DNA of 64,000 nt from Flavobacteriales bacterium. GTDB lineage: Bacteria; Bacteroidota; Bacteroidia; Flavobacteriales_F; PHOS-HE28. Each line of letters opens with the position of its first letter. The first letter of the stretch is position 1. The position numbers were made by a program, and so were the translations under genes. The notes beneath the pieces were generated by a model. It was given only the letters and a program-made list of their open reading frames with translations. It was not told the origin of the DNA and made no database searches. Of this stretch, positions 7,327 to 51,972 are shown one piece after another. The stretch covers positions 62,001-126,000 of the forward strand of contig JAHBUK010000003.1 in NCBI GenBank assembly GCA_019638115.1. The letters are read 5' to 3'.

Positions 7327-7617
7327 GGGGGGGGGGAGTGGCGAGTAGGGGAGTAGCGAGTGTCGAGTGGGTGAGTGGCGAGTGATGAGTGGCGAGTGGT
7401 GAGTGATGAGTAGGGGAGTAGCGAGTGTCGAGTGGGCTAGTGGCGAGTGGCGAGTGGGCGAGTGTCGAGTGGCGAGTGATGAGTGGGCTAGTGGCGAGTG
7501 GCGAGTGATGAGTGGGCGAGTGGGTGAGTGGGTGAGTGGCGAGTAGCGAGTGGGCGAGTGGCGAGTGATGATTAGGGGAGTAGCGAGTGATGGGTAGCGA
7601 TGTGGGTTAGTGGCGAG
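7327..7617. repeat. Deca-G tract plus GAGTGGC-type heptamer array (left of four-helix-bundle gene)
   Basis: After ten Gs (7327-7336) about 280 bases consist of 7-bp units GAGTGGC, GAGTGAT, GAGTGTC, GAGTAGC and GAGTGGG in irregular order. The 7-bp period excludes a conserved reading frame. The array ends at the stop codon of the four-helix-bundle gene. No promoter, RNA gene or CRISPR-like spacer is visible. Confidence 0.9.
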
Positions 7618-7620
7618 CTG

Positions 7621-8037
7621 TCAGGGCATCCAGAGGGTGCTGAGTTTTACCCAGATGCCGAGCAGGACCAGGCCGCCGGGTAGCTTGTCCCATTTGCCGG
7701 ACTTTTTCTTTATGTAGGTGCGGAGCAGGCGTGAAACCTCATCTTGGAGGGAGAGCATTTCCTCTACTGCCTCGGGTGTGAAGTAGGCCCTGCGTTTGGC
7801 CAGGATCAGCATGGAGTGGACTTCGTTGCAAGATCCCTTGGCGATCCACAGATACCTGAGCTGGTTTGCCGGAGTAGGCATCTCGTAGCCTTCTGCCAGG
7901 TTGTTGCAGATGGACAATGCGGCCCTGAAGAGTTGGTCCTTGAAACCGAAGTTCTTGCTGTTCGCAAGTGCAATATCAACGGCCTCGTTCAGGAGCATAC
8001 CGCGCTGCCAGGCCAGGGAGTCCTCAAAGCTTTTCAT
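7621..8037 (-). CDS. Four-helix-bundle protein (S23 / TIGR02436 family)
   Basis: This 138-residue protein shows the family pattern: LAWQRGMLLNEAVDIAL, then FGFKDQLFRAALSICNNLAEGY (the helix 2 FGxxxQLxRAAxSIxxNLAEG signature) and YLWIAKGSCNEVHSMLILA. Relatives are found as ORFs inside 23S rRNA intervening sequences, and the fold is shared with Avd of diversity-generating retroelements. No reverse transcriptase or template/variable repeat pair is seen here. The last 25 residues (LPGGLVLLGIWVKLSTLWMP) are an atypical hydrophobic tail ending at the repeat array. Both sides of the gene are occupied by the same heptamer repeat family. Confidence 0.9.
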   Translation of the reverse strand: MKSFEDSLAWQRGMLLNEAVDIALANSKNFGFKDQLFRAALSICNNLAEGYEMPTPANQLRYLWIAKGSCNEVHSMLILAKRRAYFTPEAVEEMLSLQDEVSRLLRTYIKKKSGKWDKLPGGLVLLGIWVKLSTLWMP

Positions 8038-8090
8038 AGCGTTGGTCGTTAGGGGGTTAACGCAAGGCTACAGGTTTTTGGGGGGTTGGG

Positions 8091-8303
8091 GAGTGGCGAG
8101 TATCGAGTATCGAGTATCGAGTGGCGAGTATCGAGTGGCGAGTGATGAGTGGCGAGTGATGAGTGGCGAGTAAGAGAGTGTCGAGTGGGCGAGTGGCGAG
8201 TGATGAGTGGCGAGTAAGAGAGTGTCGAGTGGGCGAGTGGCGAGTGATGAGTGGCGAGTAAGAGAGTAGTGTGAGTGGGCATTTACTCGCCTACTCGCCA
8301 CTC
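8091..8303. repeat. GAGTGGC-type heptamer array (right of four-helix-bundle gene)
   Basis: The same GAGTGGC/GAGTGAT/GAGTATC units as at 7337-7617 continue here, now with a higher-order period of about 44 bp (GCGAGTAAGAGAGTGTCGAG opens each copy, nearly three copies). The last bases flip orientation (ACTCGCCTACTCGCCACTC) and run up to the rpoN stop codon at 8304. No gene is credible within it. Confidence 0.9.
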
Positions 8304-9773
8304 TTACAGCTCTTTCCTTAGGCGTGCCACCGGCAGGTTCAATTGCTCGCGGTACTTGGCCACGGTGCGGCGTGCGATGTTGTAGCCCTTGCTTTTCAGG
8401 AGCGCGGTGAGCTCATCGTCGGTGAGGGGCTTGCGCTTGTCCTCCGCGTCGATCGCGTCGTTCAGGATCTTCTTCACCTCGCGGGTGCTCACCTCTTCGC
8501 CGCTCTCGGTGCTGAGGCTTTCGCTGAAGAAGAACTTGAGCAGGTAGGTGCCGTGGTTGGTCTGCACGTACTTGCTGTTGGCCACGCGGCTGATGGTGCT
8601 GATGTCCAGGCCCACGCGCTCGGCGATGTCCTTCAGGATCATCGGTTTCATCTTGGTCTCATCGCCGCTCAGGAAGAACTCGCGTTGGTGTTCCATGATG
8701 GCCTCCATCGTCACCAGCAGGGTGTTCTGCCGTTGTTTGATGGCATCGATGAACCACTTGGCGCTGTCCAGCTTCTGCTTGATGAACTGCAGGGCCTCGC
8801 GCTGCTCCTTGTCCTTCTTGTTGCGCTGGTACTCCTTGATCATGTCGCGGTATTGGCGGCTGATCCGGAGCTCTGGCGCGTTGCGGCCGTTGATGGAGAG
8901 TTCCAACTGCCCGTCTATGGAGAGCACCATGAAATCGGGGATGATCTCCTGCACGGGTTTGGACGTATCGCGTGCGGTGTTGCCGGGCTTGGGGTTCAGG
9001 CGCACGATGAGCTCTATGGCGCCCTTCAAGGCCTCCTCATCGATCTCCAGGCGGTCCATGATGCGCTCGTAGTGCTTCTTGCTGAAAGCCTCGAAGTACT
9101 TGTCGAGGATCTCCTCGGCTATGCGCTGTTCCAGGCTGTGCTGCATGTTGCGCACCTGGATCAGCAGGCACTCGCGCAGGTCGCGCGCACCAACGCCGGC
9201 GGGGTCCAGGCTTTGCACTTCGGCCAGCGCCTTCTCCAGCTCGGCACGCTCGCACATCACGTTCTGCGTAAAGGCGAGGTCGTTCACGATCGCATCCAGA
9301 TCGCGGCGCAGGTAACCATCCTCATCGAGGTTGCCGATCAGGTGCTCGGCCAGCAGGGTGGTGCGCTCATCGCAGCTGCGCAAGGACAATTGTGCACGCA
9401 TGGAATCCTGGAACGTGGTGCCGCCGGCCAGCGGTATCTCGCGCTCCTCATCATCCGGCCCGCTGTTGTTCACGCTCAGCTTGTAGTCCGGCGTGTCATC
9501 GTCCTGGAAGTAGTCGCTCAGGTCGAAATCATCGCGCTCGTTCTCTTCGTTCTCGTTGCTGTCCAGCTCGTCGCTGTCGCTCATGGCCTGCTCCTCCGAG
9601 GGCAGTTCCTCGTCCTGCTGGTCGTCGCCTTCCTCCAGGGCGGGGTTCTCTTCGATCTCCTGCTTGATGCGCTGTTCCAGCTCCACGGTGGGCACCTGCA
9701 ACAACTTCATCAGTTGGATCTGCTGGGGCGAGAGCTTCTGTTGAAGCTTGAATGAAAGACCTTGTTTGAGCAT
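8304..9773 (-). CDS. rpoN: RNA polymerase sigma-54 factor
   Basis: The ATG at 9773 gives 489 residues. Region I opens with LKQGLSFKLQQKLSPQQIQL, the activator-interacting glutamine-rich segment, followed by an acidic region II (EEGDDQQDEELPSEE...). The core-binding domain contains LDEDGYLRRDL, the helix-turn-helix DISTISRVANSKYVQT, and the C-terminal RpoN box ARRTVAKYRE that contacts the -24 element. It directs transcription from -24/-12 promoters with AAA+ activators. The open frame extends upstream of 9773, but this would overlap the divergent gene at 9873. Its stop codon abuts the heptamer array. Confidence 0.96.
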   Translation of the reverse strand: MLKQGLSFKLQQKLSPQQIQLMKLLQVPTVELEQRIKQEIEENPALEEGDDQQDEELPSEEQAMSDSDELDSNENEENERDDFDLSDYFQDDDTPDYKLSVNNSGPDDEEREIPLAGGTTFQDSMRAQLSLRSCDERTTLLAEHLIGNLDEDGYLRRDLDAIVNDLAFTQNVMCERAELEKALAEVQSLDPAGVGARDLRECLLIQVRNMQHSLEQRIAEEILDKYFEAFSKKHYERIMDRLEIDEEALKGAIELIVRLNPKPGNTARDTSKPVQEIIPDFMVLSIDGQLELSINGRNAPELRISRQYRDMIKEYQRNKKDKEQREALQFIKQKLDSAKWFIDAIKQRQNTLLVTMEAIMEHQREFFLSGDETKMKPMILKDIAERVGLDISTISRVANSKYVQTNHGTYLLKFFFSESLSTESGEEVSTREVKKILNDAIDAEDKRKPLTDDELTALLKSKGYNIARRTVAKYREQLNLPVARLRKEL

Positions 9774-35545: not shown

Positions 35546-38062
35546 TTGCGTACCGGCCTTCTCTCCATTGCCCTGCTCGTTGAAGCGATCACCGTCCAGG
35601 CACAGCCAAGTATCGACCTCTTCATCAGCGTGATGATCAACGGGGATCCACCCAAGGTCGTCACTGTGCGTTTGCTGGATGGCGGAGCCAGCGACCAGAG
35701 GATCTTAGCGCCGTTCGATCCGCAACGTATGAGGGTCATTAACCGACAGGCAGGGTCTCGGGTAGAGCTTGAGGTGAGTGCCACCGGCTACGACGTTGCC
35801 CATGGGGAAGGCTATGATGTGGTGAACAACAGGCGGCTGGAATTCCGGCTACCGAACCTGGCACAACACCCGCTCACCATCCGCTTGGAAAAATTCAAGC
35901 GAACGGCAGTAGAAGAAAAGTTGGATCAAAAGCTGAAAGAAGACCAGCACAGGGCAATAGAGCAATGGAATGCATCCGAGCAGGATCGGATCAAAGCGCT
36001 CCCGAGCTGGGAGGCACGCGAGAAGGCCACAGCGGCACTAGCGCTTGAGTATGCGCAAAGACAGGATGCCCTTGAGATCACCATGCTGGAGCTCGCCTGG
36101 TTGCGGGGCGAATCCACCAATACGCCCACTATGAAGGAGTTTCTTCGCATTCGCGAGGAAGAGAGTCCTGAGAAGGCGATCGAGTACGTGGCTTCGCGCA
36201 AAAGCAAGATGGCCGATGATCATCGCAAAACCAAGATCCCGGCAGATGGCCGCCGGCACCTGCTGCCACGGTACGAAGCAGCCCGGTTGCTTGGAGCTAT
36301 AGGCCGGTATGAAGAGGCCGTCACCTGGTATCAGGAACTACTCCAACTCGATCCCCTTTGGAGCGAGGTGTACGACGCACTGTTCTGGCGGTTGACTCTC
36401 GATGGTGACCGAAAAGCGCTGTACGAGGCGTTGCCGGCGGTAAGGCTCATGCGAGAAAAGGCGGACAGCATCGCACACCGGTTTGTAGCGGCTCTTCCAA
36501 ATGATCAGGTCGCGCAGCGCGACCTGTCGGTGAGTTACAACAACCTGGGCGATCTGCTTCTCCAGGAAGGCAAGGGCGTGGAAGCGCGCAGGGCCTACGA
36601 GGATGGGTTGGCGATCAGCCGGAAACTGGCCCAGGGTGACCCGCACAACGCCCAGGCGCAGCGCGACCTGTCGATCAGCTACAACAAACTGGGCGACCTG
36701 CTTCTCCAGGAAGGCAAGGGCGTGGAAGCGCGCAGGGCCTACGAGGATGGGTTGGCGATCAGCCGGAAACTGGCCCAGGATGACCCGCACAACGCCCAGG
36801 CGCAGCGCGACCTGTCGGTGAGTTACAGCAAGCTGGGCGACCTGCTTCGGCAGGAAGGCAAGGGCGTGGAAGCGCGCACCGCCTACGAAGAAGATCTGCG
36901 GATCAGCCGGAAACTGGCCGAGGCCGACCCGCACAACGCCCAGGCGCAGCGCGACCTGTCGGTGAGTTACAGCAAGCTGGGCGACCTGCTTCTCCAGGAA
37001 GGCAAGGGCGTGGAAGCGCGCACCGCCTACGAGGATGGGTTGGCGATCAGCCGGAAACTGGCCGAAGCCGACGCGCACAACGCCCAGGCGCAGCGCGACC
37101 TGTCGGTGAGTTACACCAAGCTGGGCGACCTGCTTCGACAGGAAGGCAAGGGCGTGGAAGCGCGCAAGGCCTACGAGGATGGGTTGGCGATCAGCCGGAA
37201 ACTGGCCGAAGCCGACGCGCACAACGCCCAGGCGCAGCGCGACCTGTCGATCAGCTATGAACGGCTGGGCGACCTGCTTCTCCAGGAGGGGAAGAAAGCC
37301 GAAGCGACCGCTCAATTCTTCTTGTCACGGATGATCGGGCAGCGCTTGGCATTGGCATCGCCGGACATGCCGGAGATGATCGGTGCCTTGGCCTATCCCA
37401 GCATCCGTATCGCGCATATCGAGATGACCAACAAGCGCTACGATGCGGAGCGCCTGCTTGCGATCACGGATGAAGCCCGTCTGGCCTTGGAGCATCTGCG
37501 TTCGACCGGGAGCTTCCCGGATCGCCAAGCTGCCCAGCTCCGCACCATAGAGCGGATCCAGTTCGAGTTGAAGCTCTCGTCCAAGGAGCGCAAAGACCTC
37601 GAATTCCTCCGCGCTATCGATGGACGAAAGGAGGCATTGAGCGATCGACCTGGGAACGCAGGTAAGTCAAGGGAGCAGGCGCGGATCATTGCGGATCTGG
37701 AGAAGGGGTCCAAGAAACTCACCGGAGCGTTCAGAACGGTCGCGGAACAACGCATCGCGGCATACCACGGCAGCCTGTCTTGGTATTGCCTGTTCGATCG
37801 CCGGTTCGCCGAGGCACAGCAGGCGGCCGAGCGGGGCCTGCAACTGGATCCGAGCGAAGTGTGGATCAACACCAATCTGGCCTTGGCGCATTTGTACCAA
37901 GGGCATTACCAAGAGGCCGCCGCGATCTACCAACGCATGAAGGTCCAGCAGTACGGCGAGGGGACCTACCGAGCCACCTTCCTTGAGGATCTGGATGCCT
38001 TGGAGGCGGAAGGCATAACCCACCCGGATGTGGCAAGGGCGAGGGCGTTGCTGGCGGAGTAG
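35546..38062 (+). CDS. Exported TPR-repeat protein with near-identical tandem repeats
   Basis: No ATG precedes the signal peptide. TTG at 35546 gives MRTGLLSIALLVEAITVQAQ and 838 residues; another TTG at 35468 would overlap the upstream gene. The N-terminal 110 residues are beta-rich (IDLFISVMINGDPP ... LTIRLEK), then a coiled coil with VEEKLDQKLKEDQHRAIEQW. Six 48-residue TPR units follow (QRDLSVSYNKLGDLLLQEGK pattern), five of them almost identical in DNA, and further TPR-like helices up to the end (GLQLDPSEVWINTNLALAHL). This TPR type is common in sensors attached to caspase, CHAT or STAND proteins, but no such effector domain is present. A partner-binding or sensing role next to the membrane protein is inferred. 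Confidence 0.75.
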   Translation: MRTGLLSIALLVEAITVQAQPSIDLFISVMINGDPPKVVTVRLLDGGASDQRILAPFDPQRMRVINRQAGSRVELEVSATGYDVAHGEGYDVVNNRRLEFRLPNLAQHPLTIRLEKFKRTAVEEKLDQKLKEDQHRAIEQWNASEQDRIKALPSWEAREKATAALALEYAQRQDALEITMLELAWLRGESTNTPTMKEFLRIREEESPEKAIEYVASRKSKMADDHRKTKIPADGRRHLLPRYEAARLLGAIGRYEEAVTWYQELLQLDPLWSEVYDALFWRLTLDGDRKALYEALPAVRLMREKADSIAHRFVAALPNDQVAQRDLSVSYNNLGDLLLQEGKGVEARRAYEDGLAISRKLAQGDPHNAQAQRDLSISYNKLGDLLLQEGKGVEARRAYEDGLAISRKLAQDDPHNAQAQRDLSVSYSKLGDLLRQEGKGVEARTAYEEDLRISRKLAEADPHNAQAQRDLSVSYSKLGDLLLQEGKGVEARTAYEDGLAISRKLAEADAHNAQAQRDLSVSYTKLGDLLRQEGKGVEARKAYEDGLAISRKLAEADAHNAQAQRDLSISYERLGDLLLQEGKKAEATAQFFLSRMIGQRLALASPDMPEMIGALAYPSIRIAHIEMTNKRYDAERLLAITDEARLALEHLRSTGSFPDRQAAQLRTIERIQFELKLSSKERKDLEFLRAIDGRKEALSDRPGNAGKSREQARIIADLEKGSKKLTGAFRTVAEQRIAAYHGSLSWYCLFDRRFAEAQQAAERGLQLDPSEVWINTNLALAHLYQGHYQEAAAIYQRMKVQQYGEGTYRATFLEDLDALEAEGITHPDVARARALLAE
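36515..37310 (+). repeat. 144-bp tandem repeats encoding TPR units
   Basis: Units begin at 36515, 36659, 36803, 36947 and 37091 (144 bp each, 48 codons), with a sixth, degenerate unit from 37235. Copies differ at only a few positions, some of which are shared between non-adjacent units (GDLLRQ in units 3 and 5, GDLLLQ in the others). This suggests recent unequal recombination or conversion. Confidence 0.93.
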
Positions 38063-38189: not shown

Positions 38190-39644
<1,455 letters not shown>

Positions 39645-39645
39645 G

Positions 39646-39811
39646 GAGGCGAGGGAAGGGAGGGAGGCGAAGGAGGTAAAGGGGGCGAGGGATGGGAGGG
39701 AAGCGAAGGAGGTAAAGGAGGGGAGGGAAGGGAGGGAAGCGAAGGAGGTAATGGAGGGGAGGGAAGGGAGGGAAGGAGGTAATGGAGGCGAGGGGGAAAG
39801 CAGGGGAGGGC
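39646..39811. repeat. Purine-strand low-complexity array upstream of asnS
   Basis: The top strand is almost only A and G for about 165 bases, built from GAGGGAAGCGAAGGAGGTAA-like units with a loose 40-bp period, up to the asnS start codon. It probably replaces or lengthens the 5' leader. No gene is present in it. The remaining bases to 39915 are also unannotated. Confidence 0.85.
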
Positions 39812-43722: not shown

Positions 43723-43741
43723 CGCCCGCTTGCCGGCAGGC

Positions 43742-45721
43742 ATGGACCCCATGGAAACGGAGAACCGCGAACAACACATCCTGGCCGAGGCCGGCAAGGT
43801 CTTCATGCGCCTCGGCATCCGCAGTGTGAACATGGACGATGTCGCCCAGCACCTGCGCATCAGCAAGAAGACGCTGTACCAGTATGTAAAGGACAAGAAC
43901 GAGCTGGTGCTGAAGGCCGTGCGGGGCATCACGGACCACCACCGCACCTGCATCCTGGGCATCTGCGCCAAGGGGCACAACGCCATCGACGAGAGCTTCG
44001 AGATCACGCGCTTCGTGGCTTCGCAAGTGGGCCAGATACACCCAAGCGTACACTTCGACCTGCAGAAGTACCACCCCGAGGCCTGGGACCTGCTGCAAAG
44101 CACCGAGCGGCAGGACATCTACCAGTGCATCTCCAACAACCTGAAGAAAGGCATCAAGGAAGGCCTCTACCGCGAGGACCTCAACATCGATGTCATCGCC
44201 CGCATCTACATCTCCCGCTTCGACGTCACTTTCGATGGGAAGCTTTTCCCCGGTGACAACTACCGTTTCGAGGAGGTGATCTGGGAGATGTTCCGCTATC
44301 ACACCCGCGGTATCGCCAGCGACAAGGGCGTCAAATACCTGATCAAGAAAGTGAAAAAGGAGCGCGATGGAGGCCAGGCACGCAGTGCCCTGAAGGCCGG
44401 TATGGTGGTGCTGGCCCTGCTGGCCGGAGCACTCGGTATGCGGGCACAGGGCCCCATGCGGCTAACGCTGCAACAAAGCCTGGACCTGGCCGCCAAGCAG
44501 AGCTACCAAGTGCAGGCCAGCGTGCTGGAGGCCGAGAAAGCCCGCCACAAGGTGAAGGAGATCACCGCCATAGGACTGCCACAAGTGAACGGTGAAGTGC
44601 AGCTGCAGAACTTCATAGATGTGCCCACGCAGCTGGTGCCCAACTTCTTCACCCCGGGGCAAGGACCGGATTTCGTGGCCGCACAGTTCAGCCTGCCCTG
44701 GAACTTGAGCGCCGGTCTAACCCTCTCGCAGCTCATCTTCGATGGTAGCTACATCGTTGGCCTGCAAGCCACCAAAGCACTGGCCCAGCAAAGCCGCGAA
44801 GACCTGGAGAAGACGCGTGCCGATGCACGCAACCAGGCCGCCAAAGCATACTTCGGTGTGCTTGCCGCTGAAGAGGGTGCACGGCTTGCAGCACAAGGCA
44901 TCCCGCTGCTGGAGCAGAGCTTGCGCGAAGCCCAGGCCATGCTCGATGCCGGTTTCATGGAAAGCACCGATGTGGACCGCCTGAGCATACAGCTGGACCA
45001 GACCATGGCCCAGCAGCGCAGCTTTCAGCAGCAGGCCGATGTGGCCCGCATGATGCTTGCCCTCACACTGGGCATACCGCAAGGCACCCCGCTGGACCTG
45101 GCCGACGAACTCCGCACCATCGTCAACGATCCGGCAGAGACCGCCCTCAGCGAGCAACCCTTCACAAGCGATCAGCACATCGAGCTGCAAGCGGCGGAGA
45201 CCCTCGTGCGCCTGCAAACGCTCAACATGCGGAACGAGCGGGCCAAAGCGCTTCCAAGCCTCGGGGGCTTCTTCAGCCACCAGCAAGTGTGGAACGGTCC
45301 CGACTTCGATCCCGGCGGCGACTACCCCTTCTTCCCCACCACCCTGTGGGGCGTTAAGCTCTCCGTGCCCATCATTTCCAGCGGCAACCGTTACCACAAG
45401 GTGAGGCAGGCACAGGTTGCCTTGCAGCAGGTTGAAGTGAACCGGACCGCCACCGAGCAACGCCTACTGGCGGAGGTGGCGCGCAGCCGCAGTCAGGCGC
45501 GTACCGCGTTCGACAACTACCGCTCCGAGGAGCGTAGCCTCCTGCTCTCGCAGAACATCCTGGACCGCACCAGCCTGAAGTTCGCCAACGGTGCAGCCAC
45601 CAGTTTCGAGCTCACCCAGGAGCGCGCCAACAACCTGCTGGCACAGCAGCAATACGTGCAGCGCCTGGTGGAACTGCTCAGCGCCCGCGCCGATCTGCGC
45701 AAAGCATTGGACCTGTACTGA
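43742..45721 (+). CDS. TetR-type regulator joined in frame to TolC-family outer membrane efflux protein
   Basis: One uninterrupted frame of 659 codons runs from ATG 43742. Residues 1-210 are a TetR regulator (HILAEAGKVFMRLGIRSVNM, HTH in VAQHLRISKKTLYQYVKDKN, ligand domain to about GIASDKGVKYLIKKVKK). From residue about 221, ATG 44402 opens a signal peptide (MVVLALLAGALGMRAQ) and a 439-residue TolC protein (LTLQQSLDLAAKQSYQVQAS ... TSFELTQERANNLLAQQQYV). A cytoplasmic repressor and an outer-membrane channel cannot work as one chain, so internal initiation at 44402 or a missing stop from mutation or sequencing error is likely. It heads the RND operon. Confidence 0.85.
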   Translation: MDPMETENREQHILAEAGKVFMRLGIRSVNMDDVAQHLRISKKTLYQYVKDKNELVLKAVRGITDHHRTCILGICAKGHNAIDESFEITRFVASQVGQIHPSVHFDLQKYHPEAWDLLQSTERQDIYQCISNNLKKGIKEGLYREDLNIDVIARIYISRFDVTFDGKLFPGDNYRFEEVIWEMFRYHTRGIASDKGVKYLIKKVKKERDGGQARSALKAGMVVLALLAGALGMRAQGPMRLTLQQSLDLAAKQSYQVQASVLEAEKARHKVKEITAIGLPQVNGEVQLQNFIDVPTQLVPNFFTPGQGPDFVAAQFSLPWNLSAGLTLSQLIFDGSYIVGLQATKALAQQSREDLEKTRADARNQAAKAYFGVLAAEEGARLAAQGIPLLEQSLREAQAMLDAGFMESTDVDRLSIQLDQTMAQQRSFQQQADVARMMLALTLGIPQGTPLDLADELRTIVNDPAETALSEQPFTSDQHIELQAAETLVRLQTLNMRNERAKALPSLGGFFSHQQVWNGPDFDPGGDYPFFPTTLWGVKLSVPIISSGNRYHKVRQAQVALQQVEVNRTATEQRLLAEVARSRSQARTAFDNYRSEERSLLLSQNILDRTSLKFANGAATSFELTQERANNLLAQQQYVQRLVELLSARADLRKALDLY

Positions 45722-45748: not shown

Positions 45749-46903
45749 ATGCGCCACTCGATCCTCTATCTCCCTATGCTGCTGCTCTTCGTTGCATGCG
45801 GCGGAAACACCTCCGTGGATGAACAGCTTGTTGCCAAACGAGCCACCCGCGACTCGTTGAAGACCGAGCGCGAGAAACTCAATACGGCCATTGCCGAAGT
45901 GGAGGAGTGGATCGTGCGCCACGATCCCGAGCAGAAGCGCACCCTGCCCATGGTCACCACCTTCGCCCTGCAGCCACAAGAGTTCGTGCACTGGACCGAG
46001 GCCCACGGCAGTGTGCGTGCGGACCAGAACGCACTGGTGTTCTCCGCCACCGGCGGAACGGTGCGCCGGATCCTGGTGCAACAGGGCCAGCGCGTTACCC
46101 GCGGCCAAGCCATTGTGGACATCGATGTGGATGCGCTGCGCCAACAAGTGCAGCAAGCCGAAGCCAGTGCCGAACTGGCCGGCACCGTGTTCGAGCGCCA
46201 GGCAAAACTCTGGGAGCAGAAGGTGGGCAGCGAAGTGCAATACCTGCAAGCCAAGACCAACCGCGATGCCGCCAACGCACAACTGGCCGCCCTGAAGGAC
46301 CAACTGAGGAACGCACAAGCCATTGCGCCGTTCGATGGCGTGGTGGACGAGATCTTCCCCAACCTGGGCGACATGGCCACCCCCATGCAGCCTGTGGCGC
46401 GCGTGGTGGCACTGGGCAACGCCAGCATAGAAGTGGACCTTTCCGAAGACCTGTTGACCAAGGTGAAGCTGGGCGACCCCGTGGAAGTGGTGCTGCCCGA
46501 GACCGGTGAACGCGTCTCTGCCACCATCGACCAGATCGGCCAGTACATCAATCCCAACAACCGCAGCTTCAAGGTGAGCCTGCGCATGACCAACGGCAGC
46601 AAGCTGCGCCCCAACCAGCTGGCCAACGTGCGCATCCGCGATCTGGATGTGAAGGACGCCCTGGTGGTGCCCAGCCGCTTGGTGATGGAGAACAGCAGCG
46701 GCCAGAGCTACGTGTACGTGCTGGAACAGCAGGAAGGCACCGCCCGCAGCCGCAAGGTGATGGTGAAGGTGTTGAGCGCACAAGGCGGCGAACTGCTGAT
46801 CGAGACCACCGAAGGCGGCCTGAAAGGCGGCGAGCTGCTGATCGATCAGGGATCACGCCTGGTGGTGGACAAGCAGGAAGTACAGGTAATGAAGGGAGCG
46901 TGA
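45749..46903 (+). CDS. RND efflux periplasmic adaptor (HlyD/AcrA family lipoprotein)
   Basis: The 384-residue protein has a lipoprotein signal (LPMLLLFVACGG, lipobox VAC). It has a short coiled coil at the N-terminus (ATRDSLKTEREKLNTAIAEV), a lipoyl half (TGGTVRRILVQQGQRVTRGQ), a hairpin (VFERQAKLWEQKVGSEVQYL), the second lipoyl half (AIAPFDGVVDEIFPNLGDM) and a beta-barrel domain (VDLSEDLLTKVKLGDPVEVV). It links the inner-membrane pump encoded at 47845 with the TolC protein encoded 27 bp upstream. Export substrates are unknown. Confidence 0.93.
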   Translation: MRHSILYLPMLLLFVACGGNTSVDEQLVAKRATRDSLKTEREKLNTAIAEVEEWIVRHDPEQKRTLPMVTTFALQPQEFVHWTEAHGSVRADQNALVFSATGGTVRRILVQQGQRVTRGQAIVDIDVDALRQQVQQAEASAELAGTVFERQAKLWEQKVGSEVQYLQAKTNRDAANAQLAALKDQLRNAQAIAPFDGVVDEIFPNLGDMATPMQPVARVVALGNASIEVDLSEDLLTKVKLGDPVEVVLPETGERVSATIDQIGQYINPNNRSFKVSLRMTNGSKLRPNQLANVRIRDLDVKDALVVPSRLVMENSSGQSYVYVLEQQEGTARSRKVMVKVLSAQGGELLIETTEGGLKGGELLIDQGSRLVVDKQEVQVMKGA

Positions 46904-47035
46904 GGGAATGCAGGGGAGGGAGGTGAAGGAGGTGAAGGAGGAGAAGTAAGCGAGGGAGGAGAGGGAGGTGTGGGAGGTGAAGGGGGTGAGGGAGGTGAAG
47001 GAAGGGAGTGAGGTGAGGGATGGGAGAAGTTGATA
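46904..47035. repeat. GGAGGTGAAG-type purine array (left of second four-helix-bundle gene)
   Basis: Right after the adaptor stop codon, about 130 bases of purine-rich units (GGGAGGTGAAGGAGGTGAAG and variants) fill the gap. The four-helix-bundle gene starts 32 bp further on. No regulatory motif or gene is recognisable. Confidence 0.88.
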
Positions 47036-47067
47036 CATGATCAAGGCACTCACAAAACAGAAAAGCC

Positions 47068-47535
47068 ATGAACACGACGAACGACCCATTGCATAGGGAC
47101 TGGAATATCGAGGGCTATTTCCTGCCGGGGGATACGATCTCCGTGGTGTCGGAGCCTGAGGGACGGACCGTATCGGGGTTCAAGGAACTGTGGGTTTGGA
47201 AACAGGGGATGACCCTGACCAGCACGATATACCGGCTCACGCGGAAGTTCCCTAAGGACGAGATGTTCGGGCTGACATCACAGCTTCGCAGGGCCGCCGT
47301 ATCCGTGCCGTCCAATGTCGCGGAGGGTTGGGCACGCAACCGGATAGGCTTCTTCCAGATGGGGCTCACCTATGCACGTGGGTCGGTGGCCGAGATCGAA
47401 ACCCAATTGCTGATCGCCGTAGACCAGGAGTACATCACCATGGAGGAGGCCAAACCGGTCATCGATCTATTGAACGGGCTTAGCTCTGCGCTGCTGAAGT
47501 TCTTGGGGAAACTGGAGGAGAGGAAGGGAAGGTGA
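47068..47535 (+). CDS. Four-helix-bundle protein (S23 / TIGR02436 family)
   Basis: The 155-residue protein carries an unusual N-terminal extension of about 38 residues (NTTNDPLHRDWNIEGYFLPG), then the family core FKELWVWKQGMTLTSTIYRL, FGLTSQLRRAAVSVPSNVAEGW and LTYARGSVAEIETQLLIAVD. Relatives occur in 23S rRNA intervening sequences and as stand-alone genes of unknown role. It interrupts the expected adaptor-pump gene order of the RND operon and is wrapped in low-complexity arrays, like the family member at 7621. The C-terminal end LEERKGR runs into the repeat, which encodes its last codons. Confidence 0.92.
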   Translation: MNTTNDPLHRDWNIEGYFLPGDTISVVSEPEGRTVSGFKELWVWKQGMTLTSTIYRLTRKFPKDEMFGLTSQLRRAAVSVPSNVAEGWARNRIGFFQMGLTYARGSVAEIETQLLIAVDQEYITMEEAKPVIDLLNGLSSALLKFLGKLEERKGR

Positions 47536-47817
47536 AGGAGGAGAAGAAGGTAAGGGAGGAGAGGGAATAAAAGGAGGTGAAGGAGGATAGGAAAGAAAAG
47601 GAGGTAAGGGAGGTGAAGGAAGAGAGGGAAGAGAGGGAAGAGAGGGAAGAGAGGGAGGTGACCACCATGATGAACAGCAAGAGCGCTTGATGCACCGCAC
47701 GATCAACTGATACCAACGGCGTCTGTCCATTACCTCCCTCTCCTCCCTCTCCTCCCTGACCTCCCTTACCCTCCTTCCCTCCCTCTCCTCCCGCACCCCC
47801 CTTCCCTCCCTCCCCGC
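47519..47817. repeat. Opposed purine and pyrimidine arrays (right of second four-helix-bundle gene)
   Basis: 47519-47661 is purine-rich on the top strand (GGAGGTGAAGG, then four GGAAGAGAGGGAAGAGAGG units). After about 70 bases of ordinary sequence, 47731-47817 is the mirror type (CCTCCCTCTCCTCCCTCTCC). The two parts are imperfect inverted repeats and could fold into a long hairpin. The array ends 27 bp before the RND pump gene. Confidence 0.88.
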
Positions 47818-47844
47818 ATTTAGACGCTACAACGAACGCACACC

Positions 47845-50800
47845 ATGTCACAAGACAACGGCAAAACCTACCAGGACAAACGCTTCGGGATATCCTCCTG
47901 GGCCGTGGACAACCGCGCCACCGTGATGGTGCTGTCCATCCTCATCGCATTCATCGGCTTCAGCGCATACAACACCATGCCGCGCGAAGCCTTCCCCGAA
48001 GTGGTGACGCCCGAGATCTACGTCAGCACCATCTATCCCGGCAACGCGCCGGACGATATGGAGAAGCTCGTGACCCGGCCGCTGGAGAAGGAGATCAAGA
48101 CCATCACCGGCATCGATGAGATCATCTCCACCAGCGTGCAGGGCTTCAGCACCATCCACATCAAGTTCGATTTCAACGTTACGCCCAGCGAGGCCCTGCG
48201 CAAGGTGAAGGACGCCGTGGACAAGGCCAAGGCCGATCCCGACTTCCCCACCGACCTGCCCGCAGAACCCAATGTCTTCGAGATGAACTTCTCGGAGATC
48301 ATGCCCATCCTCAACATCAACCTCAGTGGCGACTACAGCATCGATCAGCTGAACAAGTGGGCCGAAATGCTTGAGGACAAGATCGAGGACCTGCCCGAAG
48401 TGAACAAGGTGGAGATCCGCGGTGTGCCCAAGAAGGAGGTGCGCATCAGCCTCGACCTCCGCAAGATGGAAGCCCGCGAACTCGCCTTCAGCGATGTGGC
48501 ACAGGCCATCCAGAGCGAGAACGTGAGCATCAGCGGGGGCGAAGTGCTGGTGGACGGCCTGCGGCGCACCGTGAGCGTCAACGGCGAGTTCACCGACATG
48601 GACCAGGTGCGCGGCATCATCGTGAAGCAGGAGAACCTGGACATCGTACGCTTGGGCGAGATCGCGGATGTGGCCTTCACCTACGTGGAGCCAACCAGCT
48701 TCGCCCGCGAATACGGGCAGCCCGTGGTGATGGTGGACGTAATGAAACGCAGCGGCCGCAACCTGCTCGTGGCTGCGGACAGCATCAAGGCCCTGCTCGG
48801 CCGTTTCGAGCGCGACGTGTTCCCTGCGGACCTGCACGTTACGCTCACCGGCGATATGAGCGACCAGACCCGCACGCAAGTGGACGAGCTGGAGAACTCC
48901 ATCATCTTCGGCATCCTCCTCGTGGTGGGCGTGCTCATGTTCTTCCTCGGTCTGCGCAATGCCATCTTCGTAGGTGTCGCCATCCCCATGAGCATGCTGC
49001 TGAGCTTCATCGTGCTCAGCGCCATGGGCTACACCCTCAACATGATGGTGCTCTTCAGCCTGGTGCTCGCACTGGGCATGTTGGTGGACAACGGCATCGT
49101 GGTGATCGAGAACACGCACCGCCTGATGAGCGAAGGGCAATCGCCTTTGCGTGCCGCCAAGAACGGCATCGGTGAAGTGGCCATGCCCATCATCGCCAGC
49201 ACCGCCACCACCGTGGCCGTGTTCATCCCGCTCATCTTCTGGCCCGGCATCATGGGCGAGTTCATGAAGTTCCTGCCCATCACCCTCATGGTGGTGCTCG
49301 GCTCATCGCTCTTCGTGGGCCTCATCATCAACCCCATGCTGGCCTCGCGCTACATGAAGGTGACGCAGGACGGCCCTACGCGCTTCCTCACCTTCACCGT
49401 GGGCAGCATCATGACGGGCCTTGGTCTGGTGTTCAGCCTCGCCGGCCATTTCGGGGCCATGCGTTTCCTCTTCACGCTGGGCAACCTCATGCTCGCCTTC
49501 GGCCTGTTCGGCTACCTCAACCACTACGTGCTCTACCCGGCCAGCATTCGTTTCCAAACGGTCACCATGCCGCGCTTGGAGGAACGCTACCGCAACTTCC
49601 TCGTGTGGGCGCTGAATGGGTATCGGCCGCTCTTGATGTTCTTCGGTACAATTTTCTTGCTCATCATGTCTGGCGTGCTGGTATGGCTTTTCCCGCCCAA
49701 GACCCTCTTCTTCCCGATCAACGAGCCGCTCTACGTGAACGTGTTCATAGAAAAACCCATCGGCACAGACATCAGCGAAACGGACATCACCACACGCATC
49801 GTGGAGGAACGCATCATGGCCGTGCTGGCCGACCCGCGCTACAACGATGAGGTGAACGACACCCTGCCCGATGGCACCGTGCAGAAGGGACTGCACAACT
49901 TCATGGTAAGCTCGCTCATTGCGCAAGTGGGCGAGGGCACCAGCGACCCCATGGCCGGCCCCAGCTTCGATGCCACGCCGCACAAGGGCCGCGTGCAGGT
50001 AAGCTTCGTGAAGTCGGCCGAGCGCCGCGGCTTCAACACCCTGGACATCATGGAAGAGATCCGCGATGCTGTGCGCGGTGTGCCCGGTGTTACCGTGGTG
50101 GTGGACAAGGATGCTGCTGGTCCGCCGGCCGGCAAACCCATCAACATCGAGATCAAGGGCGATGATGTGAACGGCCTTATCGCCGAAGGTGAGCGCCTGC
50201 GCCAATTCCTGGTGGCGCAACACATTGCCGGTGTGGAGGAGCTGAAGCTCGACATCGAACTCGGCAAGCCCGAAATGCCCGTGGAGATCGACCGCGCCAA
50301 AGCACGGCGTTATAACGTGAGCACCTACGCCATCGGCGATGCCATACGCACCGCGCTCTACGGCCGCGAGGTAAGCACCTACAAGGAGGGCGAGGACGAC
50401 TACCCCATCAACCTGCGCCTGAAGGACGAGTACCGTTACGACCCCGAGGTGCTCACCAGCATGCGCATCACCTTCCGCGACCAGACCAACGGCCAGATCC
50501 GCCAAGTGCCCATCAGCGCGCTGGCCACCACACGCTACACCAGCACCTACAGCGCCGTGCGCCGCCTGGACCTGAAACGCATGGTGCAGGTACAGAGCAA
50601 CGTGCCCAGCGACTTCAACCCCACCGAGGTGGTGGGCAAGGTGCAGCAGGCCATGGAGGGCTACCAGAAAGACCCCGCCTACACCTATGAATTCACCGGT
50701 GAAATGAAGGAGCAGGAAAAGCAGATGGCCTTCCTCAGCACCGCCCTCATGATCGCCGTGTTCCTGGTGTTCCTCATCATCGTGGCGCAGTTCAACAGCG

Positions 50801-51393
50801 CGGCCATCCCGGCCATCATCGTCAGCTCGGTGGTCTTCAGCCTCATCGGCGTGTTCCTTGGCCTGGTCATCTTCCGCATGGAGTTCGTGGTGATGATGAC
50901 CATGGTGGGCATCATCTCGCTGGCCGGCATTGTGGTCAACAACAGCATCGTGCTCATCGACTTCATGATGCTGATGCAGCAGCGTCGCAAGGCCGAGCTG
51001 GGCCTGCGCGATGATCAGCGCCTGCCCATGCCCGAAGTGCTGGTGGCCATCGAAGAGGCCGGTGCGCGCCGCCTGCGTCCCGTGCTGCTTACCGCCATCA
51101 CCACCGTGCTCGGCCTCATGCCACTGGCCATCGGTCTCAACATCAACTTCTTCACGCTCTTCTCACACCTCGACCCGCAGATCTTCATCGGTGGCGACAA
51201 CGTGGTGTTCTGGGGCCCCATGAGTTGGACCGTGATCTTCGGCCTCGTCTTCGCCACCTTCCTCACCCTGGTGATCGTCCCCATCATGTACCTGCTGCTG
51301 GTGAAACTCATGTACCGCTTCATACCGGTGCCGGACCTGAAGACACCGCAGGTGGAGGGGCATGCTGGCGACGGCGTGGTGGAGGCGGTGTAG
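47845..51393 (+). CDS. RND-superfamily efflux pump (HAE1/AcrB-like inner membrane transporter)
   Basis: The 1,182-residue protein opens with a helix (TVMVLSILIAFIGFSAYNTM) and YPGNAPDDMEKLVTRPLEKE, typical of HAE1 pumps. Motif D/A region GILLVVGVLMFFLGLRNAIF, VDNGIVVIENTHRLMSEG and the repeat half LIIVAQFNSAAIPAIIVSSV with VVNNSIVLIDFMMLMQQRRK are clear. Twelve helices with two large periplasmic loops are expected. It is longer than the usual 1,040 residues because of extra hydrophobic sequence near 510-580 (TVGSIMTGLGLVFSLAGHFG). It is predicted to expel drugs, lipids or metabolites together with the adaptor and TolC proteins upstream. Confidence 0.95.
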   Translation: MSQDNGKTYQDKRFGISSWAVDNRATVMVLSILIAFIGFSAYNTMPREAFPEVVTPEIYVSTIYPGNAPDDMEKLVTRPLEKEIKTITGIDEIISTSVQGFSTIHIKFDFNVTPSEALRKVKDAVDKAKADPDFPTDLPAEPNVFEMNFSEIMPILNINLSGDYSIDQLNKWAEMLEDKIEDLPEVNKVEIRGVPKKEVRISLDLRKMEARELAFSDVAQAIQSENVSISGGEVLVDGLRRTVSVNGEFTDMDQVRGIIVKQENLDIVRLGEIADVAFTYVEPTSFAREYGQPVVMVDVMKRSGRNLLVAADSIKALLGRFERDVFPADLHVTLTGDMSDQTRTQVDELENSIIFGILLVVGVLMFFLGLRNAIFVGVAIPMSMLLSFIVLSAMGYTLNMMVLFSLVLALGMLVDNGIVVIENTHRLMSEGQSPLRAAKNGIGEVAMPIIASTATTVAVFIPLIFWPGIMGEFMKFLPITLMVVLGSSLFVGLIINPMLASRYMKVTQDGPTRFLTFTVGSIMTGLGLVFSLAGHFGAMRFLFTLGNLMLAFGLFGYLNHYVLYPASIRFQTVTMPRLEERYRNFLVWALNGYRPLLMFFGTIFLLIMSGVLVWLFPPKTLFFPINEPLYVNVFIEKPIGTDISETDITTRIVEERIMAVLADPRYNDEVNDTLPDGTVQKGLHNFMVSSLIAQVGEGTSDPMAGPSFDATPHKGRVQVSFVKSAERRGFNTLDIMEEIRDAVRGVPGVTVVVDKDAAGPPAGKPINIEIKGDDVNGLIAEGERLRQFLVAQHIAGVEELKLDIELGKPEMPVEIDRAKARRYNVSTYAIGDAIRTALYGREVSTYKEGEDDYPINLRLKDEYRYDPEVLTSMRITFRDQTNGQIRQVPISALATTRYTSTYSAVRRLDLKRMVQVQSNVPSDFNPTEVVGKVQQAMEGYQKDPAYTYEFTGEMKEQEKQMAFLSTALMIAVFLVFLIIVAQFNSAAIPAIIVSSVVFSLIGVFLGLVIFRMEFVVMMTMVGIISLAGIVVNNSIVLIDFMMLMQQRRKAELGLRDDQRLPMPEVLVAIEEAGARRLRPVLLTAITTVLGLMPLAIGLNINFFTLFSHLDPQIFIGGDNVVFWGPMSWTVIFGLVFATFLTLVIVPIMYLLLVKLMYRFIPVPDLKTPQVEGHAGDGVVEAV

Positions 51394-51939
51394 GCCCAAC
51401 TTCACACCTCACACCTCCGCACTCACACCTCACACCTCTCTAAAGGGTGATGTGTGAAGTGTTGTTTGTGAGGTGTGAGGGAGCGCCCAACTTCACCCCT
51501 CACACCTCCGCACTCACACCTCACACCTCACTATAGGGTGATGTGTGAAGGGTTATTTGTGAGGTGTGAGGGAGCGCCCAACTTCACACCTCACACCTCC
51601 GCACTCACACCTCACACCTCTCTAAAGGGTGATGTGTGAAGTGTTATTTGTGAGGTGTGAAGTGCCACCCAACTTCACACCTCACACCTCCGCACTCACA
51701 CTTCACACCTCTCTAATGGGTGATGTGTGAAGTGTTATTTGTGAGGTGTGAAGTGGCACCCAACTTCACACCTCACACCTGCGCACTCACCCCTCACACC
51801 TCTCTAAAGGGTGAAGTGTGAAGGGTTATTTGTGAGGTGTGAGGGAGCGCCCAACTTCACACCTCACACCTCCGCACTCACCCCTCACACCTCTCTAAAG
51901 GGTGATGTGTGAAGGGTTGTTTGTGAGGTGTGAGGGAGC
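51394..51939. repeat. Six tandem 91-bp repeats, each an imperfect hairpin
   Basis: Units start at 51394, 51485, 51576, 51667, 51758 and 51849, all exactly 91 bp with a few substitutions. Each begins GCCCAACTTCACACCTCACA and ends GAGGTGTGAGGGAGC or similar. The C/A-rich first half is complementary to the G/T-rich second half, so every unit can fold on itself around CTCTAAAGGGTGATG. The array begins on the base after the pump stop codon. There are no spacers, so it is not CRISPR. The 33-bp stretch to the next gene is plain. Confidence 0.95.
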
Positions 51940-51972
51940 GCTTCCACCATTGCGAGCGAAGCAGATCATTCC

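Follow-up and report, generated by a model that had tools for sequence, protein, structure and literature searches.

Inverted short-unit arrays around PF05635 genes and dispersed gene-less hairpins in a Flavobacteriales genus: a possible repeat-spreading partnership

The PF05635 element between the RND adaptor and pump genes

The window, a 64,000-nt stretch of a Flavobacteriales contig, contains an RND efflux operon in which a periplasmic adaptor gene (45749-46903, plus strand; TIGR01730, E 2.2e-51) and the RND permease gene (47845-51393, plus strand; PF00873, E 3.6e-168) are separated by a small gene with repeat arrays. The small gene (47068-47535, plus strand, 155 amino acids) matched PF05635 (E 4.8e-31) and TIGR02436 (E 7.6e-29), and its product, referred to as IVP, is a predicted four-helix bundle with an Avd-like fold. 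The stop codon of the adaptor gene ends at 46903 and abuts a purine array (46904-47035, plus strand; TRF 46912-47020) with units of approximately 9 nt (AGGTGAGGG / GGAGGTGAA). On the other side, the 3' codons of the IVP gene run into an inner purine array (47515-47661, plus strand, TRF) that is a direct copy of the left unit; it is followed by an outer pyrimidine array (47726-47817, plus strand; TRF 47726-47814), and the pump start codon lies 27 nt past the end of the latter. The outermost left and right arrays are mutually inverted, and RNA folding predicts that they pair around the gene, which occupies the loop (z = -3.0, none of 20 shuffles being as good). Profile matches and TRF confirmed the original prediction that a PF05635/TIGR02436 gene, flanked left and right by short-unit arrays, separates an RND adaptor gene from its pump gene. 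Upstream of the adaptor gene, an outer membrane efflux protein domain follows a TetR N-terminal domain in a single open frame (43730-45721), possibly a fusion.

The second locus of the same gene type, predicted at 7.3-8.3 kb, was also found to be real. It consists of a GAGTGGC heptad array (7336-7589, plus strand, TRF), a PF05635 gene on the minus strand identified by profile match (7621-8037, 138 amino acids, L008) and a further GAGTGGC heptad array (8087-8306, plus strand; TRF 8087-8267) that closes with an inverted copy (TTACTCGCCTACTCGCCACTC). Two tandem arrays identified by TRF contain no gene: a purine array of the GAGGGAAGG type (39643-39794), the unit of which is similar to that of the 47 kb element, and a cluster of six 91-nt units (51394-51941), each combining TCACACC heptads with GGTGTGA heptads in inverted orientation. 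A PF05635 gene was not seen next to this cluster, and its TCACACC/GGTGTGA unit was seen at none of the IVP elements of the same genome. In 627 control slides along the window, scores above 50 were confined to four places: the two IVP loci, the array at 51.5 kb and a repeat located near 36.7 kb. Chance repeats were rejected on the basis of these slides, of mismatched arm pairs and of Rrf2 control loci (see below). The repeat at 36512-37294 (144 nt, 5.4 copies) appears to be coding, and from its translation we take it to resemble a TPR-type coding repeat.

Of 45 genomes of the genus, 42 yielded an adaptor homologue, and 30 loci were fetched. An IVP gene was present in the adaptor-pump gap of only one of the 30, that of the window genome; therefore it is not a conserved operon member. 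IVP is codirectional with its neighbors and lies inside the operon, as expected if it regularly belonged to the efflux operon or regulated it; with no gene in the gap at 29 of 30 fetched loci, this reading was rejected and retains next to no probability. The gap measured about 8-24 nt at seven of the 30 loci. Among the eight nearest relatives (64-77% identity) it was 8-10 nt in three and 57 nt in one; in the other four, gaps of about 130-140 nt (the length for L085 being taken from its near-identity to L084) contained inverted CACAGAGG-type repeats, which resemble the period-9 arrays of PF13366 genes rather than IVP heptads. Among more distant homologues (41-47% identity, perhaps another operon), the gap measured 16-24 nt in four cases, and several hairpins were present; lengths were extrapolated from the start of the pump match. 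Uninterrupted junctions of 8-10 nt exist in relatives, as had been proposed for defining the insertion, but the gaps are too divergent to set borders to the base, as would be needed to recognize a target-site duplication of the classical MITE kind.

A duplicate of the element is present on another contig (C4) of the window genome. It aligns with window positions 46885-47646, sharing the left array, the gene and part of the right array, whereas the flanks of the two copies do not align. The two proteins are 87% identical with a dN/dS of 0.055, and in ten other gene pairs pN was well below pS or there was no change; the IVP protein is under strong purifying selection, as judged from dN/dS between the two copies. 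At a separate site, the sdh-site IVP gene is identical in genomes G010 and G008 over 114 codons (L222/L223), but past about 2.8 kb of the locus the two have nothing in common. The proposed repeat-associated mobile or selfish cassette is partly supported: the single occupied junction among 30, the second copy with non-aligning flanks and the dispersed gene-less repeats described below speak for a repeat-associated cassette. It may be mobile or selfish, but neither movement nor excision was observed, nor a target-site duplication.

Arrays around PF05635 genes in other loci and genomes

The genome of the window (4.06 Mb, nine contigs) contains 11 PF05635 genes, which corrects the earlier count of two cases in 64 kb. 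All 11 are flanked on both sides by tandem arrays of 7-9 nt units, as judged by eye, with one unit common to left and right and different units at different loci. The claim that the two window loci bear different repeats holds between loci, but within each locus left and right are matched, and across the genome this is so with exceptions. For quantification, flanks of 260 nt were scored for inverted left-right matches by local alignment, which replaced an initial, blunt k-mer score that placed 22 of the 63 genus loci beyond the 99th centile for mismatched pairs. The fixed cut-off of at least 16 was chosen after the 99th centile of the mismatched pairs was known. It was reached by 9 of the 11 own loci and by 47 of 63 genus loci (own included). 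Among Rrf2 control loci, 1 of 29 reached it, and that one has no heptads, only a plain inverted repeat. Left out were five named loci because of short flanks, short-flank loci of the other sets and, in the arm-swap test below, near-identical sdh copies.

In a wider sample, the pattern recurred in part. Loci retrieved by the motif [VI]S..SNIAE (the named set), a non-random sample of the family, reached 16 in 27 of 75 usable cases (80 in total) and missed it in 48; of 11 loci from other families, three reached and eight missed it. Relative to 3000 mismatched pairs, the inverted score exceeded the 95th centile at 38 and the 99th centile at 25 of the 75 named loci. Those above the 97th centile include loci from Bacteroidota, Acidobacteria, Planctomycetes and Geobacter, as well as from an ignavibacterial MAG, a Limnohabitans MAG and one Methanophagales MAG (archaeon). 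Cyanobacterial plasmids gave matches in 36 records, and three of eight fetched loci reached 16; phage records gave no match. On a Nostoc plasmid (L416), a PF05635 gene with GGGAGTA heptad arms lies between the ribonucleotide reductase beta and alpha genes, antisense to both.

The arms have a common anatomy. Among loci scoring at least 16, the best period was 7 in 35 of 48 genus loci and in 25 of 30 other and named loci, and the median matched arm was 30 nt in the genus and 31.5 nt in the others and named loci. The left arm is G-rich (G 0.34-0.36 versus C 0.11-0.16), and the right arm is its C-rich mirror. The window element and its paralogue L001, with units of approximately 9 nt, are exceptions to the heptads. 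The sdh-site IVP element (L222-L226) has a left arm of the ABCA and a right arm of the ACAB type, a pair that is common to the clearest gene-less hairpins; X/Y arm types were named after the arms had been read. Neighboring genes, which we take to be sdhA/sdhB, sufB/sufC, metK/rplU, gltD and sucC, were named by reading their translated ends. In an arm-swap comparison of 20 elements from six shared sites, the average score was 17.1 with own arms and 14.7 with swapped arms (Wilcoxon p = 0.007), with own arms outscoring every swap in just 7 of the 20.

PF13366 (GxxExxY) genes of the relatives were found in comparable surroundings, with inverted matches above the 95th centile at 20 and above the 99th at 9 of 29 loci, and with period-9 units by eye. 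Examples of these period-9 inverted arrays (L191-L220) are ACCGCAGAGGCGCAGAG and TCCACAGATGACACAGATG. Because this family sits in similar arrays, such arrays are not exclusive to IVP. The PF13366 arrays suggest a broader class of array-bounded elements, yet they also favor the explanation that heptad hairpins spread by other means (replication slippage, template switching or another enzyme) and that IVP genes are passengers caught between arms, all the more as 15 of the 29 PF13366 loci reach 16. Against a passenger role, the unit length is 7 at IVP loci and 9 at PF13366 loci, and arrays rarely bound ordinary genes, as the Rrf2 control indicates.

Gene-less hairpins and the resident gene

IVP-type repeats without a gene form hairpins of roughly 70-130 nt. 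Arrays without a gene were found in 20 stretches of 20 kb (approximately 10% of the genome), and several of them use the units of the genome's own IVP elements, namely GAGTGGC (L289), the GGCGAAT type (L299), purine (L286) and GGGATGTG (L285). With 14-mers derived from the element arms, 40 loci in three genomes were found to have no PF05635 match within about 0.8 kb. At GGCGAAT-type gene-less loci, a parser assigned arms to both strands in 31 of 34; a strict pair of ABxA and AxAB was present in only 9 of the 34, and L361 contradicts it in having ABxA on each strand. Folding of five heptad hairpins and of two adaptor-pump gaps with 9-mers gave z values of -4.4 to -9.0. Because some sites are common to several species, not all hairpin copies are recent. 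In one hairpin of purine and pyrimidine repeats (L345:680-1010), a lone GGCGAAT-type arm was observed, as if one repeat type had entered another.

The dispersed repeat type tends to follow the unit of the resident IVP gene, with exceptions. This was evaluated in 45 genus genomes, many of those with exceptions being incomplete, and the statistics are optimistic because related genomes were counted as independent. Outside the element, TGAATGGCGAATGG occurred in 21, 10, 10, 5, 4, 4 and 2 copies in the seven genomes whose sdh-site IVP bears this unit, versus 0-2 copies in 36 of the other 38 genomes and 8 each in G052 and G053 (Mann-Whitney p = 1e-5). The pattern TGATTGGTGATTGG was picked because the arms of L228/L229 use it; the highest counts were found in G006 (59) and G013 (8), whose sdh-site IVP bears the unit, followed by 5, 5 and 4 (p = 9e-4 after removal of element hits), and both G006 and G013 contained no copy of TGAATGGCGAATGG. 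For CGAGTGGCGAGTGG, genomes with an L008-like gene had 17, 21, 18, 11, 5, 4 and 0 copies outside the element (p = 8e-5), the zero being G022, where the arms read GAGTCGT. In control counts with reversed patterns, there were no copies in any genome for TGAATGGCGAATGG, and the maximum per genome was three for the GGTGATT and one for the GAGTGGC pattern.

The exceptions bear on whether IVP genes are only passengers. Copies without a matching gene were found in G045, G046, G052 and G053, where GAGTGGC occurs 6-10 times although no gene passes the cut-off as L008-like; G052 and G053, with their eight TGAATGGCGAATGG copies each, also lack an sdh-type gene, and G059 has four copies though its gene bears another unit. 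An aminotransferase-like gene (by reading) between two GGCGAAT hairpins (L379:4773-6134), at a site that in G008 and G010 contains a single hairpin and lacks the gene, also fits passengers. On the other hand, the rule that type follows gene was upheld for the pattern taken from element arms (G006, G013). On balance, a passenger role appears rather improbable, but it is the alternative to be taken most seriously.

A counterpart of the 23S rRNA intervening sequence placed between cistrons was also considered. The arms would pair in the transcript and RNase III would cleave the resulting stem; the gene would ride along, and the neighboring genes would be uncoupled post-transcriptionally. The gene family is the same, the window element folds with its ends paired, several elements lie between the stop codon of one gene and the start codon of the next, and the stem of 28 bp given for Coxiella in the available part of PMC4990558 compares with 30-31.5 nt here. 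These elements are, however, not in rRNA, an Rfam scan of 20 named loci gave no match, and some genes are antisense to their neighbors (e.g. L416). The genome-wide gene-less copies of matching type are not explained by transcript processing alone, so that we regard it as unlikely.

Two explanations relying on a known enzyme are far less probable still. If the arrays were REPs of a RAYT (Y1 transposase), Y1 genes would be expected, and Y1_Tnp genes were indeed found in 11 of 12 genus genomes searched; 12 of 26 usable Y1 loci also scored at least 16. Those inspected, however, had palindromic REP-type or unrelated inverted repeats and none had heptads, and G022 has no Y1 match, yet six copies of TGAATGGCGAATGG. 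A RAYT/REP origin was thus disfavored, as the flanks of Y1 loci differ. The Avd-like fold of IVP would fit a retro-mobilization in which IVP acts like Avd in a diversity-generating retroelement. No RVT_1 match was found in the window genome (G000), in G008 or in G010 (one contig), these being among 9 of 12 genomes with none, and a reverse-transcriptase route is very doubtful in the genomes searched.

Proposed explanation and comparison with known systems

PF05635/TIGR02436 proteins are widespread, and we know of no job for them, their home in 23S rRNA intervening sequences being puzzling; nor is a catalytic site known to us. Avd forms pentamers and binds nucleic acid. An AlphaFold2 model of the window IVP (mean pLDDT 84.8) matched the structures 2gsc (TM 0.93), 2rld and Avd (4dwl, TM 0.87 by target, E 0.055; 8ube; 8ub7). 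The Avd matches had TM scores of 0.75-0.87 by target length with weak E values of 0.055-0.25 and about 10% identity.

In our best reading, to which we assign a probability of roughly 0.55 as a whole, a logic like that of RAYT and REPINs would operate with a binding protein in place of the transposase. The segment 46904-47844 would be one copy of an element bounded by arrays, in which inverted short-unit arms enclose a small gene for the non-enzymatic IVP, inserted into a gap between adaptor stop and pump start that was probably about 10 nt long. Each IVP gene would be paired, as a resident, with a repeat type of its own, the arms of which would be scattered over the genome as hairpins without the gene. 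IVP oligomers may bind their cognate unit as single-stranded DNA or RNA, and host enzymes may cut and copy it; acting in trans, IVP would in this way spread the hairpins or keep them up. What the sequences show is the arm anatomy, the left-right match, the gene-less copies, the tendency of repeat type to follow the gene with its exceptions, the in-genome duplicate and the purifying selection; the binding, the action in trans and the copying route are inferred.

A wider statement is put forward tentatively, at somewhat less than even odds: PF05635 proteins would be sequence-specific, trans-acting partners of dispersed heptad-arm hairpins in several phyla. Each paralogue would read its own 7-nt unit, present four to five times per arm, and drive its spread or upkeep without a transposase of its own; a switch of the IVP unit would switch the hairpin set, and 23S rRNA intervening sequences would be members that landed in rRNA. 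If true, the cognate link to the arrays would give PF05635/TIGR02436 a role, tie scattered heptamer repeats to a gene and define a repeat-spreading system without a transposase; it raises the concrete question of whether an IVP protein binds its own unit. The data suggest an undescribed partnership of a small protein with spreading DNA repeats, and the abstracts and passages of the open-access literature searched contained no paper tying PF05635 to dispersed repeats.

Heptamer repeats are known from Beggiatoaceae, with TAACTGA in intergenic tandem units (PMC4679880), and from Geobacter, with paired sites of 4-5 x 7-8 nt (PMC2700814). As here, these are intergenic tandem units of 7-8 nt, some paired on opposite strands, but the available passages of both papers state no tie to a gene family or resident partner. 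With diversity-generating retroelements, IVP shares the fold of Avd, by structure alone (E 0.055-0.25), at about 10% identity and with no reverse transcriptase match in the window genome. The 23S rRNA intervening sequences carry a PF05635 (S23) ORF within a loop whose terminal stem measures about 28-30 bp, as far as described in the accessible part of PMC4990558, which resembles the elements studied here; in contrast, the window element lies between RND protein genes and not in a 23S rRNA gene, its arms are tandem units varying per element, and gene-less copies are dispersed. REPINs, according to the passages available from PMC3116915, are dispersed inverted doublets that form hairpins, are linked by type to a resident gene, occur in tandem clusters and derive from the ends of a gene-bearing element. 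The present system differs from REPIN/RAYT in that the partner is a PF05635 four-helix bundle without a Y1/HUH domain, that the arms are tandem heptads of ABxA and AxAB types rather than palindromic REPs, and that RAYT/REP-type loci occur separately within the same genus. With REPINs as described there, it has in common that inverted doublets capable of forming hairpins are dispersed, that tandem clusters occur, that the doublets correspond to the ends of an element with a gene, and that their type follows the resident gene, except in G045, G046, G052, G053 and G059.
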